Source: Planctomycetaceae bacterium (GTDB lineage Bacteria; Planctomycetota; Planctomycetia; Pirellulales; Pirellulaceae). From it: a stretch of DNA of 36,116 nt. The stretch covers positions 1-36,116 of the forward strand of contig JAIYDQ010000373.1 in assembly GCA_027487375.1 (NCBI GenBank), written 5' to 3'. Positions 9,648 through 22,276 of the stretch are shown piece by piece. Under the pieces are notes generated by a model that was not told the origin of the DNA, did not search any database, and worked only from the letters and a program-made list of their open reading frames with translations. The translations under genes and the position numbers were made by a program. Position 1 is the first letter of the stretch. Each line of letters opens with the position of its first letter.

Positions 9648-10017
9648 CGATTACATGCCGGTCCGGAAAAACTTCTTATCAAGGATCAAACCACCAATAG
9701 TCGACCGATCGCTGATTTCTGTCAAGAAGTTTCAATGAGGTTTTGCCACGAAATTGTGGGTGAACAGGGGTTCGTCTAATCGATTTTCGCCCACGATCGG
9801 CTATGAGAATTCCATCCTCATTCGATGGCAAATCCAACAAAAGTGACTTGCGCCTTTTGAAGTTGATCATTTTGAAGTGCGAATCAAGAAATCGTACTCG
9901 TGCTCGCACGACCGGTTTCAAGCACGAGCACCGTCTTCGACTGAGTACGAGTAGGGAAAACCGAGAACAAACGTCTCAAACACCGCACTTTCAAAACCAG
10001 CGCCAGCAGCTTAAAGG
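9648..10017. other. Intergenic region, 370 bp, with one inverted-repeat element
   Basis: No convincing gene is present here. The stretch separates the permease 3' end from the secreted-nuclease start, both on the minus strand, so it should contain the nuclease promoter. A short inverted repeat of CGTACT/CGAGCA words is listed separately at 9892-9950. A minus-strand frame of 80 codons across 9679-9921 is Arg-rich, lacks family features and crosses the repeat; it is not called. Confidence 0.6.
9892..9950. repeat. Short inverted repeat of CGTACT/CGAGCA words
   Basis: TACTCGTGCT at 9895-9904 pairs with AGCACGAGCA at 9921-9930 (9 of 10 positions) around a 16-nt centre. In a nested alternative, CGTACTC at 9893-9899 pairs with GAGTACG at 9943-9949. 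The words are those of the repeat at 66-201, which suggests the two sites belong to one family. Confidence 0.65.
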
Positions 10018-14329: not shown

Positions 14330-14777
14330 TGTATGTCACGCTCGGCCCCTCTGGCCAGACGTTTTCTTGAGGAAAAACAAAAATCAGATTGCGAAAATTC
14401 ACTTTGTAAGTCGCCTTCGAGCCTTAGAACCGTCACAATCGGTGTCTGCGGTGTAATCGAGCCCAAGGGTAGATCGCCCTACTCAAAAATCAATTGTTTC
14501 GCGAAATCTCGCTAAACGCCACCAACAGCTCTGTGTCCTCCGTGCTCGTTTGTTTCAATTTCATACGATTGCCCTTTGCTTCGCTAGATTTGCGCAAGCA
14601 CGGATTCTGGAAACACAGAGGCACAGAGTGCACAGAGAAAAACGAGGGCCATTCGCGGCTCTAGAATATAAAGATGGTAGTTGGCTTAAAACGTGGCCCG
14701 GCTTTTGCAAAGTGATGCTGCGACAGGCTTTTTAGCCTGCCGATCTTGTATCAACGTCCAGGTGGAGACCGTAAACA
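14330..14777. promoter_or_regulatory. Intergenic promoter region between the CPFC operon and clpB, with hairpins
   Basis: About 450-530 bp separate the divergent operon and clpB and should hold both promoters. I could not identify a sigma-32, HrcA/CIRCE or other heat-shock site with confidence. A perfect 6-bp hairpin (CAGGCT and AGCCTG around TTTT) lies at 14724-14739 in the probable clpB leader. A GGTGGAG at 14761-14767 is the likely ribosome-binding site for ATG 14778. An inverted repeat at 14529-14620 is listed separately. Confidence 0.5.
14529..14620. repeat. Inverted repeat of CACAGAG/CACGGA words
   Basis: CTCTGTGT at 14529-14536 pairs with ACACAGAG at 14613-14620, and TCCGTGCT at 14539-14546 pairs with AGCACGGA at 14597-14604. 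All 16 positions match, with a 50-nt centre. The right arm continues into further CACAGAG words to 14637. It has the same design as the elements at 87-201, 17722-17824 and 17984-18086. Confidence 0.75.
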
Positions 14778-17438: not shown

Positions 17439-17443
17439 TAAAC

Positions 17444-17476
17444 CAATGTGGATCAGCTGTCCCCAGCTGATCAGTG
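17444..17476. repeat. Direct repeat copy 1 with perfect hairpin after clpB
   Basis: GATCAGCTG (17451-17459) and CAGCTGATC (17464-17472) form a perfect 9-bp stem with a TCCC loop, beginning 12 nt after the clpB stop. Its position suits a terminator, though there is no T-run. The same 33-bp sequence recurs at 17618-17650 with two differences. Confidence 0.85.
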
Positions 17477-17617
17477 CTCTCAGTGACATTCCACCAAAGT
17501 TGATGAAATGGCCCACTAGAGTCTCAATACACCCTTTTACCAAACCTAGCCTAAGTTGCTACAGGTTCTGCGGGCTCGGCGTAAACGCCGCGAGAAACAG
17601 CTGAAACAGCTGTTCTA

Positions 17618-17650
17618 CAATGTAGATCCGCTGTCCCCAGCTGATCAGTG
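17618..17650. repeat. Direct repeat copy 2
   Basis: This is the second copy of the 33-bp repeat at 17444-17476. It differs at two positions, one of which (GATCCGCTG instead of GATCAGCTG) puts a single mismatch in the 9-bp stem. A more degraded relative, sharing TGATCAG and the following TATGAAA/TGTGAAA stretch, lies at 18223-18249. Confidence 0.85.
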
Positions 17651-17721
17651 TGTTGTGAAAATCCCCGTTGACGCTGAAATAGCCGCGGATTCACATCACT
17701 TGCACTAATACGTTTTTGATG

Positions 17722-17824
17722 GGACACGGAAGGCACGGATTTGATTTGGTTGTTTTGCAATCCTTGAGAAACACCATCGGATCAACGCCCCAATGCTCTT
17801 GTCTTCTCCGTGTCGTCCGCGTCC
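17722..17824. repeat. Inverted repeat of CACGGA words
   Basis: GGACACGGAAGGCACGGA at 17722-17739 is an inverted match (15 of 18) to TCCGTGTCGTCCGCGTCC at 17807-17824, around a 67-nt centre. Arm words are close to those of the 14529-14620 element, so the two probably share an origin. Confidence 0.75.
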
Positions 17825-17983
17825 AATACCAATCACGCGAAGGAGAAACTTACAAACAGTGGCAAAAACAAATCGGCCCGATCGAATTTGACCCCCAATT
17901 GCCTGCCGTTAGTTCCTCAAGCAATTGAAGTTGGAATCAATCCGAGAACGCTAATGAACAGCAAATTTGACGTGAACATTATG

Positions 17984-18086
17984 CCCGCAAATTACGCTAA
18001 TAAACTCGGATTAATGCGGACCACAAGTTGTTGTAGTATTCCCTAAGGCGTTCAAACTATTCGCGTAAATCCGCGTTATTCGCGGG
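17984..18086. repeat. Inverted repeat of GCGAAT/GCGGAT words
   Basis: The 26-nt segments 17984-18009 and 18061-18086 are imperfect inverted copies (about 18 of 26 match), starting CCCGCAAATTACGC and ending TTATTCGCGGG, around a 51-nt centre. The total length, 103 bp, equals that of the neighbouring element at 17722-17824, but the arm sequence is different. Confidence 0.65.
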
Positions 18087-18399
18087 TAAAGAAAGCATGT
18101 TGCGACGATTCCAAATCAATAGCCAGCAATTCTTCCGCCATAAGGTTTAGTGGGTGTCCCAGAGCCCCACTCTTCATAAAAATCGCTCCGTGTGCGTCGT
18201 AGTAGCACTGAGTAAATCGGTTGCCCAATTGATCAGCGCGCTATGAAACTCGCATCAATGTTAAGGCATTTTACAACAACAGAAGCAGGCGTCATACGTC
18301 AAGCAACGCATGCTATAGTTCTCGGAAGTAAATTCGCGGTCATCTACCGCTTTGCGTACCACAGCTTGGTTCTGTCTTTTGCCGGTTACCCAATCGTGA

Positions 18400-20379
18400 C
18401 TATGGCGAGGTTGTGATGTTGACCACCAGGAATGACGCCGGCAAACCGGGGACGGTTTGGAGTGTTGGGGTTAGCTCGGTCGCATCGTAACTAAGAAGTC
18501 TCTCTTCGCCAACGAAGTAGTTGTGATTGTCGGCGACTACTAGATTGTAAGTTTCCACGTCTAAACCTTCCTCAATCGATCTAATCGTTGAAGTGCCCGA
18601 CGCATTATGAATTCTCATCCCAACTTCGAGTTCCTTGGTCCGGGTCCATCCTCGACCAGCAATCCACCAAAAGTGCCCCAAAGTTGCCTGAACTTTTCCC
18701 GTTTCCGTTTCGAAGACTAGCGTCTTTGCTGGGGGGCGAACGGTAGTCCTTATGACTGGCCTCATCGCCAATTCACCGGTAGTGATATTTTGCGAAAGGA
18801 CCAAATCACCTTGTCGGATTGCTTTGATATCTTGCAAACCCCGATCGGTTTGAATTAGAGTTCCGGCCACAAGGCACGAAACATATCTCTCCGATGCTGA
18901 TTCCGTTCTCAGTTCGTTGTGAGATTCGACAATCACATCGGAACTGATCGTGTACGCTTTACTGCGGTCCTCTAAGTAGTATGTTTTGCTTTGAGACGAT
19001 GTGATTCGAATTCGCTCATTATATTCATCCCACCATCGCCACCACGAAGGTGAATCACTTATCTTGTCGGTTCCAGCGCAAATGTTTAAGAACCAAATAA
19101 TCCTGTCCTGTCGAAATTTTGCTTCGTCCTTCGCTTTAAGGTGGGCTGCTGAAATACGCTCGGATTCCCTCTTCGCGTCCTCATGAAGGCTTTCGTCTAC
19201 CACTTTGTTTTCATCATAGAGCACCGCAGCTCCAAGCCAACTTTTTGAAAAACCTGCCACGGCTCTTACCTGGACTACGGACGTTGTTCCCCTCCGTCGC
19301 GAATGAATCGTTTCAGTATCTGTATTTTCATGGAGTAAACTTTGACTAACTGTCGCTTTTCCGATTCGGCGGTCTAAGACAGAATCAATTACTGCAACTT
19401 TCTCAAAGCTTCGAAGATGTTCTCGATGGATTTGACGTAAAACTCGTTCGCCGTTTGCCCGCTTAAATATTAGGAATTCAACGTTTGAACCGCCTGCAAG
19501 TTGTGATATTAGGTTCGGAACATAAAACTCCATCGGATACTCTTTCACGCCCTCGATCGCGACTTGCCCGAACTTCGAAGATGGATCGACAAGTGCAATT
19601 CGAGCTAGAGTTTCACAAGCCTCTTGACTTCGAAACTTACGAATCGTTTGAATAAACGGAATGGCGTTATCGTCAGCCAATTGTGCGGCGGTGACCCCCA
19701 TCGCAAAAACCGATTCGATATCTTTTATTGCTTTTAGCTCATCGATGGCTTTCAGCTTTAATTTTGTGTCCATCCCCACGATAGATGCCGCAATGCGTTT
19801 CATCGAAGGCATCCATTTGCTCAAACTACGCATCTTTTCTTTGGCCGCAATCGACGCATCGCGGATGTCGTCATCAGTCATCCATTCACCGTCGACAAGT
19901 TGAAATTTTAGTTTCTTGCGAGCCGCTAGGTCGTTTGAAGATAAATCGAGGACACCAAACCAGTGAGCATCAGCCTGCATTTTGAGATCGCGTTCTTCAC
20001 ACCAACCTGCCATGCGTCGGTGGCCGCCCACATCTAGATCGTTATCGCCACGTTCTTTCAAGTATCGTTTCATGAGCGCTGACTGCGTTGAGTCATCGAT
20101 TTCATTAAACGGCATCCATTTCTTATCGATCCAAACTTCACCGCTATGCCACCGCGCTTCGTCAGAACCTTCGGCTTTCTCGTCAACCAAAAGCTCTCTT
20201 CGATCGACGATCACTCCAGCGTCTTCAGCACGTAGCACTTTTTCGATGGGACCATTCAATGCATCCGGCTCGGATTTGACTTCGGCGGCGGTAAAAGAAC
20301 TTCCGCCTATTCCGGCAACTAGAAATGTCGCCGTTCGAAAGTACCAAAGGTAAGAGTTTGCAAGCAAGCGAATCATCAT
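18400..20379 (-). CDS. Exported planctomycete protein with C-terminal Hint domain
   Basis: The 659-aa protein has a signal-like hydrophobic N-terminus (about 10-30) and a long charged, mainly helical region (about 35-495) with no family I recognise. A Hint domain follows at about 502-632. It starts with the nucleophile-type Cys in CLVAGTLIQTDRGLQDI, then DLVLSQNITTGEL. The Hint B-block-like TLGHFWW has its His near 569, and the terminal YNLVVADNHNYFVGEERLL is typical. Hint domains in inteins and pretoxins cleave at their borders. Here the usual C-terminal His-Asn is replaced by SYDAT and only about 27 residues follow, so C-terminal cleavage is doubtful and no toxin is attached. Related planctomycete proteins are frequent; their role is unknown. 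The gene stands alone, divergent from the TPR protein at 20673. Confidence 0.85.
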   Translation of the reverse strand: MMIRLLANSYLWYFRTATFLVAGIGGSSFTAAEVKSEPDALNGPIEKVLRAEDAGVIVDRRELLVDEKAEGSDEARWHSGEVWIDKKWMPFNEIDDSTQSALMKRYLKERGDNDLDVGGHRRMAGWCEERDLKMQADAHWFGVLDLSSNDLAARKKLKFQLVDGEWMTDDDIRDASIAAKEKMRSLSKWMPSMKRIAASIVGMDTKLKLKAIDELKAIKDIESVFAMGVTAAQLADDNAIPFIQTIRKFRSQEACETLARIALVDPSSKFGQVAIEGVKEYPMEFYVPNLISQLAGGSNVEFLIFKRANGERVLRQIHREHLRSFEKVAVIDSVLDRRIGKATVSQSLLHENTDTETIHSRRRGTTSVVQVRAVAGFSKSWLGAAVLYDENKVVDESLHEDAKRESERISAAHLKAKDEAKFRQDRIIWFLNICAGTDKISDSPSWWRWWDEYNERIRITSSQSKTYYLEDRSKAYTISSDVIVESHNELRTESASERYVSCLVAGTLIQTDRGLQDIKAIRQGDLVLSQNITTGELAMRPVIRTTVRPPAKTLVFETETGKVQATLGHFWWIAGRGWTRTKELEVGMRIHNASGTSTIRSIEEGLDVETYNLVVADNHNYFVGEERLLSYDATELTPTLQTVPGLPASFLVVNITTSP

Positions 20380-20672
20380 CGTTACTCCCAGTGAACCGTA
20401 TCAAGAAAAGGGGATGTGTTAAGAACATCCAGATCGACTCTCTGCTCACTGTAGCAACTTTAACTCTTTGAGAATATAACTTTTAAGCAAGTAATCTGTT
20501 TCTTCATTTTTCGAACACATGACTCAGATCGCAATCCGATTCAGACTGTTTGCTTTCGCTTATCGCTAAGCAAAAAACAACGACGATTCTTCATATAAGA
20601 GCATTAAGATCTTTAACGTTCCGGAACTCGTTTCTACTCTCATCAATCAACTTTCTAAATCGGAGCGTGTGT

Positions 20673-21941
20673 ATGACTTACAGAGCAATACTTAGCTTTT
20701 TGCTATTTGCGAACGTTGCGACTACTGTTTTCGGACAAGAAGCTTCAACGCCCGTTTCGAGTGATATCGAAGCAATCAAGAATATCCATCGCGAGTTCGA
20801 TTTGCATATGTCTCGAAAGAAGACGCTGTTGCAGGAATACGAGAGGATCACGCAGACCTTGAAGTCAACGGAAACCGAATTTCAAAAGCTGGCAAACGAT
20901 AACGTGCAAAAGCAAATGGCAAAGCTCATGCTTGAGTGGAACCAGGCAATGCTTGAAAGTTCGATTATCGAAGAATCGAGATCATTTGATATTCGAACCA
21001 CCGGGCCCAACTTGCGTCCTCACGTTCTCACCTCAGAGCTCAACCTTGTTTTGAATCTAGGGGAACAATCGACAGTTGCTATCGATTTACAGCAGATAGA
21101 AGGCGCAGGCCGTGTTGTTGTCGAGCGTCGGCTAAAGACATTTCAAGATGGTGCGAAATGGAGAGAAGACTATTCGAAATGGACTGGCGAGCGTCCGGGT
21201 TACTTCTACCAATACTGGCGATTTACCGATCCGAGTCTCGTTTACTCGCAGCCTGAATGCGAAAGGCTCTTGGAAACTCTGAAATTAAAATCGAATGAGA
21301 ATTGGCCTGCGTCGCTTGCCGTAGCGATCCTTGAATTGAGGCTAGGTCAAACGAATTCAGCTAACCAAACGCTAAACGAAATCGTTGAAATGAGAACTCC
21401 TTTGCACAACGTGGCGTTGGCCGGGCGTGCGATTGTATTTGCATATGAAGGCGATATGAAAAAAGCAAAAGCAGAGATCGCTTCGTCATTAAAAATCGAT
21501 CCGAGCAATGCTTATGTTCGATTTATGCGGGCTCGTATCGCGGCGAGTGAGCGAGACTGGCCGAAAGCAGAACAAGATTTTAAAGCGGTACAGAAAGTCC
21601 CTAACCTTTCGATCGATGTAACACGTAATTTGGCATTTATCCAAGCGATGAAGGCTGAAAAGAACGACAAGCTTGTACCTAAGATTACAGAGAAAATCAA
21701 ACTGCTTCACGCTTTGGTCGGTACAAATGATTGGCAGTCTGAGTTGCTTACGGCTTGGGCACACAAAATCGCAAACGAAAAGGATCAGGCGCTCGCTGCG
21801 GCCACCACCGCAGAAACACTGGCTCGCGACGACAACCGAACAGTGTGCACGGATCTATATCAAGCGATCAATGATGATGAGCAATTCGAGTGGGATTTCC
21901 TCCGTGGTGAAGCAAGGGGCCGTGTTTCATTTACGAAATGA
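20673..21941 (+). CDS. Exported TPR-like protein, function unknown
   Basis: The 422-aa protein begins with a signal peptide (MTYRAILSFLLFANVATTVFG, cleaved about residue 21). A coiled-coil stretch follows (about 35-90, rich in Lys/Glu/Gln). The second half has at least two TPR-like helix pairs, for example AVAILELRLGQTNSANQTLN and GRAIVFAYEGDMKKAKAEIA followed by SLKIDPSNAYVRFMRARIAA. The chosen ATG 20673 has GGAG about 7 nt upstream and starts the signal peptide; the frame is open back to 20550 but that extension is not protein-like. Such repeats usually mediate protein contacts in the periplasm. The gene is divergent from the Hint-domain gene and could share its promoter region (20380-20672). 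Confidence 0.8.
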   Translation: MTYRAILSFLLFANVATTVFGQEASTPVSSDIEAIKNIHREFDLHMSRKKTLLQEYERITQTLKSTETEFQKLANDNVQKQMAKLMLEWNQAMLESSIIEESRSFDIRTTGPNLRPHVLTSELNLVLNLGEQSTVAIDLQQIEGAGRVVVERRLKTFQDGAKWREDYSKWTGERPGYFYQYWRFTDPSLVYSQPECERLLETLKLKSNENWPASLAVAILELRLGQTNSANQTLNEIVEMRTPLHNVALAGRAIVFAYEGDMKKAKAEIASSLKIDPSNAYVRFMRARIAASERDWPKAEQDFKAVQKVPNLSIDVTRNLAFIQAMKAEKNDKLVPKITEKIKLLHALVGTNDWQSELLTAWAHKIANEKDQALAAATTAETLARDDNRTVCTDLYQAINDDEQFEWDFLRGEARGRVSFTK

Positions 21942-22276
21942 TTTACGTAAGAAGGCGGTGACTTTCGGTAAACATTTCGCCGCATAATCGGAGGTAAGTC
22001 TCGTCTCTGTGAACTTCCTCTTGGATCAGTCCCTGATTTTGCAGAGTATCTTCTAGGGGCAATCATTGTTTCAAGAATGAGACAGACTAGCGATGAATTC
22101 TTATATGGCTTCGATTTCGGAAGCAGCTTAGAAGGACTATTATCCAATCGTCGCGGCACACACAGCAAATCGATTCAGCATATGCTGCATGCCCGAATCT
22201 ACAGTTGCCTATGGAGAGACACCTTTAGTACGGGGAATCGGCAAGGAAGCGTATTACTAAAGTGCCCTTGCCCCAT
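21942..22276. other. Intergenic region, 335 bp, between convergent genes
   Basis: This gap lies between the 3' ends of the TPR gene (+) and the DUF1552 gene (-). I see no gene, RNA or clear terminator; a 67-codon plus-strand frame at 22077-22280 has no protein-like character. Confidence 0.5.

Follow-up and report, generated by a model that had tools for sequence, protein, structure and literature searches.

The locus examined here raises the question of what two neighbouring inverted repeats, A (17722-17824) and B (17983-18087), represent in a stretch of 36,116 nucleotides (nt), referred to below as the window, from a Planctomycetaceae bacterium (contig JAIYDQ010000373.1 of assembly GCA_027487375.1, which comprises 5.46 Mb in 529 contigs and is 87% complete). 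Our answer, to which we assign a probability of about 0.55, is that both are non-autonomous relatives of elements carrying a single nuclease gene, that they were mobilised in trans and that they are mostly old in this genome. The argument involves GxxExxY (PF13366) and S23 (a four-helix bundle), two common and unexplained bacterial gene families, of which S23 is known mainly from intervening sequences (IVSs) of ribosomal RNA.

Element A is built of CACGGA words with a period of about 9 nt, that is, a 6-nt core and spacers of about 3 nt, which point inward from arms at 17722-17739 and 17807-17824; taken as 17719-17739 and 17807-17827, the arms are complementary at 81% over 21 nt, with a centre of 67 nt between them. 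Each arm of element B (17986-18011 and 18059-18084) holds three 7-nt words separated by 2- and 3-nt spacers; the left arm reads CGCAAAT-TA-CGCTAAT-AAA-CTCGGAT, and the right arm, from its outer end inward, CGCGAAT-AA-CGCGGAT-TTA-CGCGAAT. The words of B span 17986-18084 around a 47-nt loop, and the outer termini are (T)GCC..GGT. Neither of the loops (47-67 nt) contains an open reading frame (ORF), and hence no S23 ORF. The arm alignment scores of A and B, like those of two further window sites (87-201 and 14500-14650), exceeded 100 of 100 dinucleotide shuffles, and relatives of A and B occur across the source genome and in a same-genus genome, G001, of which about 2 Mb was compared, so that the inverted repeats proposed in an earlier note on this DNA are real. 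That note lists A and B as two adjacent elements; together with the intervening spacer (17825-17982) they form a composite A-spacer-B unit that recurs, with copies on two other contigs 85% identical over 261 bp, and a search of the source genome with this region found 27 further places, which fall into two sequence families often located next to each other. That A and B are equally long is a coincidence between two families, while the idea of a fixed length holds for the B family itself, which is near-constant at 94-103 nt between the outer words. A scan of the window against Rfam gave no match, and a promoter and terminator scan around A and B remained at chance level; neither at B nor across A was there a match resembling the U-tract of a terminator.

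The two elements lie in a 4.8-kb stretch (17439-22265) that also contains a 659-amino-acid pretoxin-HINT ORF (18400-20379, minus strand). At the orthologous site, G001 lacks this stretch and has about 140 bp between the flanking genes. A dispersed palindromic repeat, CAATGTRGATCNGCTGTCCCCAGCTGATCAGTG, has window copies at 17444-17476 and 17618-17650, and is also found beside an A/B locus on contig C461 and at the G001 junction that lacks the 4.8-kb stretch.

Analysis of the sequences flanking GxxExxY genes revealed word arms of the same design. At 23 of 26 planctomycete loci these arms scored above the 99th percentile of 255 control positions, and 53 of 70 named GxxExxY loci from many phyla, including Planctomycetota, Verrucomicrobiota, Cyanobacteriota, Pseudomonadota, Acidobacteriota, Chloroflexota, Bacteroidota and Armatimonadota, exceeded 99% of control positions. 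The words are mostly C-R-C-N-R-A-G, with some C-R-C-N-R-A-T followed by 3-nt spacers, and match those of A (CACGGA), B (CGCNRAT) and a third window element, E3, described below. Element B has the grammar of the GxxExxY elements, with at least three CRCNRA[GT] words per arm and spacers of 2 and 3 nt in both arms, when substitutions such as CTCGGAT in the left arm are allowed. At S23 genes, inverted word arms were above the 99th percentile of 346 controls in 22 of 29 strong planctomycete loci, with words that vary by locus and have a period of 7-9 nt. The only S23 gene of the source genome (L041) lies exactly between the CusB stop and the CusA start and is flanked by AT-rich inverted word arms; at the same site another relative, G014, has an S23 gene whose two arms both consist of other words, and only a short gap is present in most of the remaining relatives. 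The suggestion in the earlier note that A and B could be mobile elements of a non-autonomous kind, and its mention of S23-like genes near such tracts, are in line with this arrangement. The only GxxExxY gene of the source genome (L042) has a complete hairpin on each side (1003-1063 and 1917-1977) composed of another word family, GGCAGAAAGATCGAACGCAGAAATATG; L155 and L165 also have complete hairpins on both sides, so that at all three loci either flank resembles a gene-less element. At L140:1483-1881 and similar GxxExxY loci, the reading frame extends into the arm words, giving an N-terminal stretch of the "NHRDTEAQR" type; in annotated proteins, N-termini of this kind probably represent arm DNA rather than protein. 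No GxxExxY gene was found in phages and only five were found on plasmids, so that no near-identical plasmid pair was available for target-site comparison. In the literature, no text was found that ties GxxExxY to inverted or tandem repeats, the mentions being a CRISPR-RT annotation and an algal virus genome, both unrelated, and the related CACGAAG words were not found.

The grammar of the arms was determined in 52 GxxExxY loci by parsing three words per side independently, without aligning the arms. The word variant was common to both arms at a rate of 0.886, compared to 0.651 when arms were permuted between loci (0 of 2000 permutations), and spacer lengths were equal between arms in 104 of 104 cases (0.50 permuted). 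The spacer letters, on the other hand, agreed at 0.534 against 0.467 permuted, which is not significant (264 of 2000). Had one arm recently been copied from the other, the spacer letters would have been carried along too. In addition, GxxExxY protein identity was correlated with arm-word similarity (Mantel r 0.35, 0 of 5000; partial on GC content 0.33, 0 of 2000), indicating that gene and arms travel together, which is compatible with recognition of the words by the protein and does not prove it. The four residues E, D, E and K of a PD-(D/E)XK site are invariant in 18 of 18 and 34 of 34 aligned sequences. Tertiary structure prediction gave a confident model (pLDDT 92.6) whose best fold neighbour was Cas4 SSO0001 (Z 8.9, root-mean-square deviation 3.4 over 95 residues), while further neighbours, among many, included BamHI (Z 7.5) and archaeal Hjc (Z 6.4), matches below Z 8 being common and indicative of a shared fold only. 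GxxExxY is therefore predicted to be a nuclease of the PD-(D/E)XK fold, for which a sequence profile found no convincing relative of solved structure. A stop codon was present within 7 of 41 named GxxExxY ORF stretches, in four of them in the conserved part, as would be anticipated for mobile DNA in decay.

Gene-less copies were surveyed with the pattern ACCACRGAGNCACRGAG, which was present in 39 of 199 planctomycete genomes, with a maximum of 467 matches in one genome, and of which a reversed control gave almost no matches. Among the places listed, neighbouring matches within 1 kb formed 36 convergent pairs and no divergent pair, and 33 of the 36 were separated by 32-235 nt, a distance too short for a GxxExxY gene, so that these 33 pairs are gene-less. 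GxxExxY genes occurred in 35 of the 39 pattern-bearing genomes and in 61 of the 160 others (Fisher p 2e-9), an enrichment that arises partly from the gene-bearing elements themselves. Gene-less copies thus far outnumber gene-bearing ones and are found mainly in genomes with GxxExxY. Comparison between species also revealed turnover: four species of the same genus lack a nested gene-less element of genome G227 at the orthologous site (33 nt in G292 against 298 nt), and at the site orthologous to E3, G001 carries a CGTACTC element in place of the CACAGAG words.

Three further elements of the window, like A, B and the A-to-B spacer listed without a strand, have the same arm design with other words. 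E1 (87-201) has arms of 6-nt CGTACTC words, and its family is found at dozens of places in the source genome and in G001 each. E2 (9892-9950) is a short degenerate element of CGTACTC words that is missing at the orthologous G001 site and whose arm score was weaker, being reached by 3 of 100 dinucleotide shuffles. In E3 (14529-14637) the left arm is CTCTGTG-TC-CTCCGTG (14529-14544) and the right arm CACAGAG-G-CACAGAG-TG-CACAGAG (14614-14637), the latter continuing beyond the end at 14620 first given for this element. The CGTACTC family is a third and larger one, with 52 matches in the source genome and 52 in G001, some of which represent two strands or two arms of one element. The earlier note was right that a design is shared under differing arm words (CACGGA in A, CGCGAAT/CGCGGAT in B, CGTACTC in E1 and E2, CACAGAG in E3); the five do not, however, form a single sequence family, as their arm words differ and those of E3 point outward. 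The words of E3 are nevertheless common to many GxxExxY elements, and a solo element of G001 (C58:159724-159815) also has outward CRCAGAG words, unlike all 36 convergent pairs. When 400 kb of G001 was scanned de novo, 27 intergenic tiles scored at least 22, compared to 1 in shuffles, a count that takes in ordinary terminators and other palindromes; about one third of the non-redundant tiles were word elements (CGTACTC, CACGGA, CGCAGAG) and the rest other palindromes. Inverted matches are therefore commoner than in shuffled sequence, and the lack of excess that the earlier note had named as fatal to its proposal was not what these counts gave. One CGTACTC element, at L220 (about 1500-1606), is seemingly inverted in place relative to G001 (C58, about 156200), with an AGGCGnAAGCC half on the left in one species and on the right in the other.

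The way in which the arms are conserved was analysed in the B family, using an alignment of 22 copies (8 from the source genome and 14 from G001, some tandem or orthologous) with 109 columns. Identity, calculated with one further partial copy, was.79-.96 in the words,.50-.68 in the spacers of the same arm, about.40-.64 in the loop and about.27-.31 in the outer flanks. Covariation of the explicitly written stem was 0.071 compared to 0.066 in shuffled columns, the column pair 17/93 in word 2 sets A opposite C, unpaired, in 21 of 22 copies, and pairing between the spacer positions does not exceed the shuffled level. Between orthologous copies of the source genome and G001, the number of words in one arm shifts by 9-nt units, or one arm is lost without compensation. 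Taken together, the B arms are kept as word sequence and geometry and not as a base-paired structure, contrary to the first proposal that selection acts on structure rather than sequence. Single-strand folding did beat shuffles, with z between -2.1 and -3.8 for E1 and E3 (plus strand) and for either strand of A and B, as is expected of any inverted repeat.

These results are best accommodated if A and B belong to a class of elements in which both ends are arrays of a short word, with a period of about 6-9 nt, in inverted orientation. Autonomous members would carry one gene, either GxxExxY, with CRCNRA[GT] words and spacers of 1-3 nt, or, in a second class, S23. The nuclease, alone or with host factors, would recognise the tandem words at both ends and cut there, which would lead to excision, copying or insertion of the element; gene-less copies would use the nuclease in trans, as REPINs are thought to use RAYT. 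The scheme starts from the observed linkage of gene and arms, the grammar, the conserved catalytic site and the turnover between species; binding of the words, cutting and insertion by the nuclease are the steps that we infer. A and B themselves are probably immobile now and inert remnants, because the majority of copies seem to be old and to have been inherited vertically, and the words of the resident GxxExxY gene are different.

Several observations weigh against this interpretation. Arms above the threshold were lacking at 17 of the 70 named GxxExxY loci, four pattern-bearing genomes had no GxxExxY match, and the pattern covers CACRGAG words only, so that the ratio of solo to gene-bearing elements does not extend to the types of A, B and CGTACTC. 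Both the GxxExxY and the S23 gene of the source genome are flanked by words other than those of the window; with the sole GxxExxY carrying other words, the 87%-complete assembly yielded no cognate partner for any of A, B, E1 and E3. In addition, no cargo gene was identified for the CGTACTC family, the word polarity of E3 is opposite to that of the other elements, and the correlation between protein and arms could be plain co-inheritance of one unit. At several orthologous sites the source genome and G001 have an element in common, one arm of which has decayed in one of the two species, so that most copies in this genus look old rather than recently moved. Empty sites were found, with no target-site duplication or excision product seen in intergenic DNA that is too diverged.

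RNase III is known to cut S23-bearing IVSs. The elements could accordingly be RNA intervening sequences of this type, in which cutting of the arm stem makes insertions into transcripts harmless and gene-less copies are decayed IVSs. The IVS of Coxiella 23S rRNA has an inverted-repeat stem with tandem heptamers at its 5' end, upstream of the S23 ORF (PMC4990558). The S23 elements have the same arm design, the sites between CusB and CusA in the source genome and G014 both hold S23 with arms, and the S23 spacers match at 0.75 in register compared to 0.52 off register, a difference biased by the choice of alignment. RNase III cutting and the Coxiella heptamers make an RNA-level role a serious alternative for the S23 elements; for A and B it is unlikely, as the window elements are intergenic, have GxxExxY-type words and no S23 inside, and the pairing of the B arms is not conserved.

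Somewhat less likely again are hairpins maintained by the host for their RNA structure, as terminators or as processing or stability elements. The position of the elements between genes and the better-than-shuffled folding of A, B, E1 and E3 would suit such a role; the lack of compensatory covariation in B, its fixed A.C mismatch, the unpaired spacers and the uncompensated loss of one arm in orthologous copies argue against it, as do the absence of an Rfam match and of a terminator-like U-tract at B or spanning A. Mobilisation by a resident RAYT (Y1 transposase) is very improbable, even though REPINs are likewise inverted doublets with a spacer, of about 100 nt, intergenic and of high copy number (PMC3116915), and Y1_Tnp genes occur in the source genome and G001. 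The window words do not form the flanking arms of any of the seven Y1_Tnp loci of these two genomes, several of which lie next to other palindromes (TGGCCAAAGGCCATATTCA, AGCCAGGGGCAACGCCCCTGG, GCCTAGCCCAGGCT), and GxxExxY elements elsewhere carry CACAGAG/CACGGAG words, so that this explanation is unsupported. The RAYT-like Y1_Tnp genes at L373 and L374 lie between classic REP-like palindromes unlike the window words. The least probable explanation, low-complexity DNA made by replication slippage and hairpin template switching without any element biology, fits the one-sided gain or loss of 9-nt units in orthologous arms and a left arm that is a near-perfect 9-nt array, but pure slippage, like chance, is rejected in view of the specific tie to two gene families across phyla and of mirrored spacer lengths with consistent convergent polarity, although slippage may still shape the number of words.

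If A and B are indeed gene-less relatives of nuclease elements, they represent miniature inverted-repeat elements with a partner gene, and possibly a new class. More broadly, and tentatively, as we hold this at slightly under even odds, they may belong to a widespread new class of mobile DNA in which one PD-(D/E)XK nuclease (GxxExxY) or S23 lies between tandem, freely evolving words, with specificity set by the word and the mirrored spacing, and which gives rise to hundreds of gene-less copies. If GxxExxY and S23 are both carried as cargo by word-arm elements, their role can be tested directly, and much of the "low-complexity" intergenic DNA of environmental genomes would be explained. To our knowledge, matched spacing and words without matched spacer letters have not been described for any transposon end.

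Among known systems, the short tandemly repeated repetitive (STRR) and heptanucleotide repeats of cyanobacteria are likewise short degenerate tandem words, capable of forming hairpins, in intergenic DNA and introns; we know of no link between them and GxxExxY or S23. Miniature inverted-repeat transposable elements (MITEs) are similar in being short, gene-less and multi-copy, with inverted ends that in the present class also occur on gene-bearing elements, and the B family has MITE-like conserved ends (words.79-.96) and unrelated flanks (about.27-.31). They differ in that the ends here are word arrays with mirrored spacing, the partner is a small nuclease of putative mobility, no target-site duplication was seen, and the window ends are not shared with a gene-bearing element in the 87%-complete source assembly. 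The 23S rRNA IVS of Coxiella resembles the class in having an S23 gene between inverted ends and tandem heptamers at its 5' end (PMC4990558), whereas the window elements are intergenic, without an ORF and with GxxExxY-type words. A resemblance in layout also exists to REPIN/RAYT systems (Bertels and Rainey 2011, PMC3116915), in which short intergenic hairpins with two inverted conserved ends and a variable spacer exist in many gene-less copies, and the enzyme gene is flanked by the same ends. The word-arm elements differ from these in having ends that are arrays of 6-9-nt period varying between elements, an enzyme of PD-(D/E)XK fold or S23 instead of an HUH tyrosine transposase, a B stem without compensatory changes, and a cargo gene that is multi-copy in many genomes, while RAYTs are described as single-copy.
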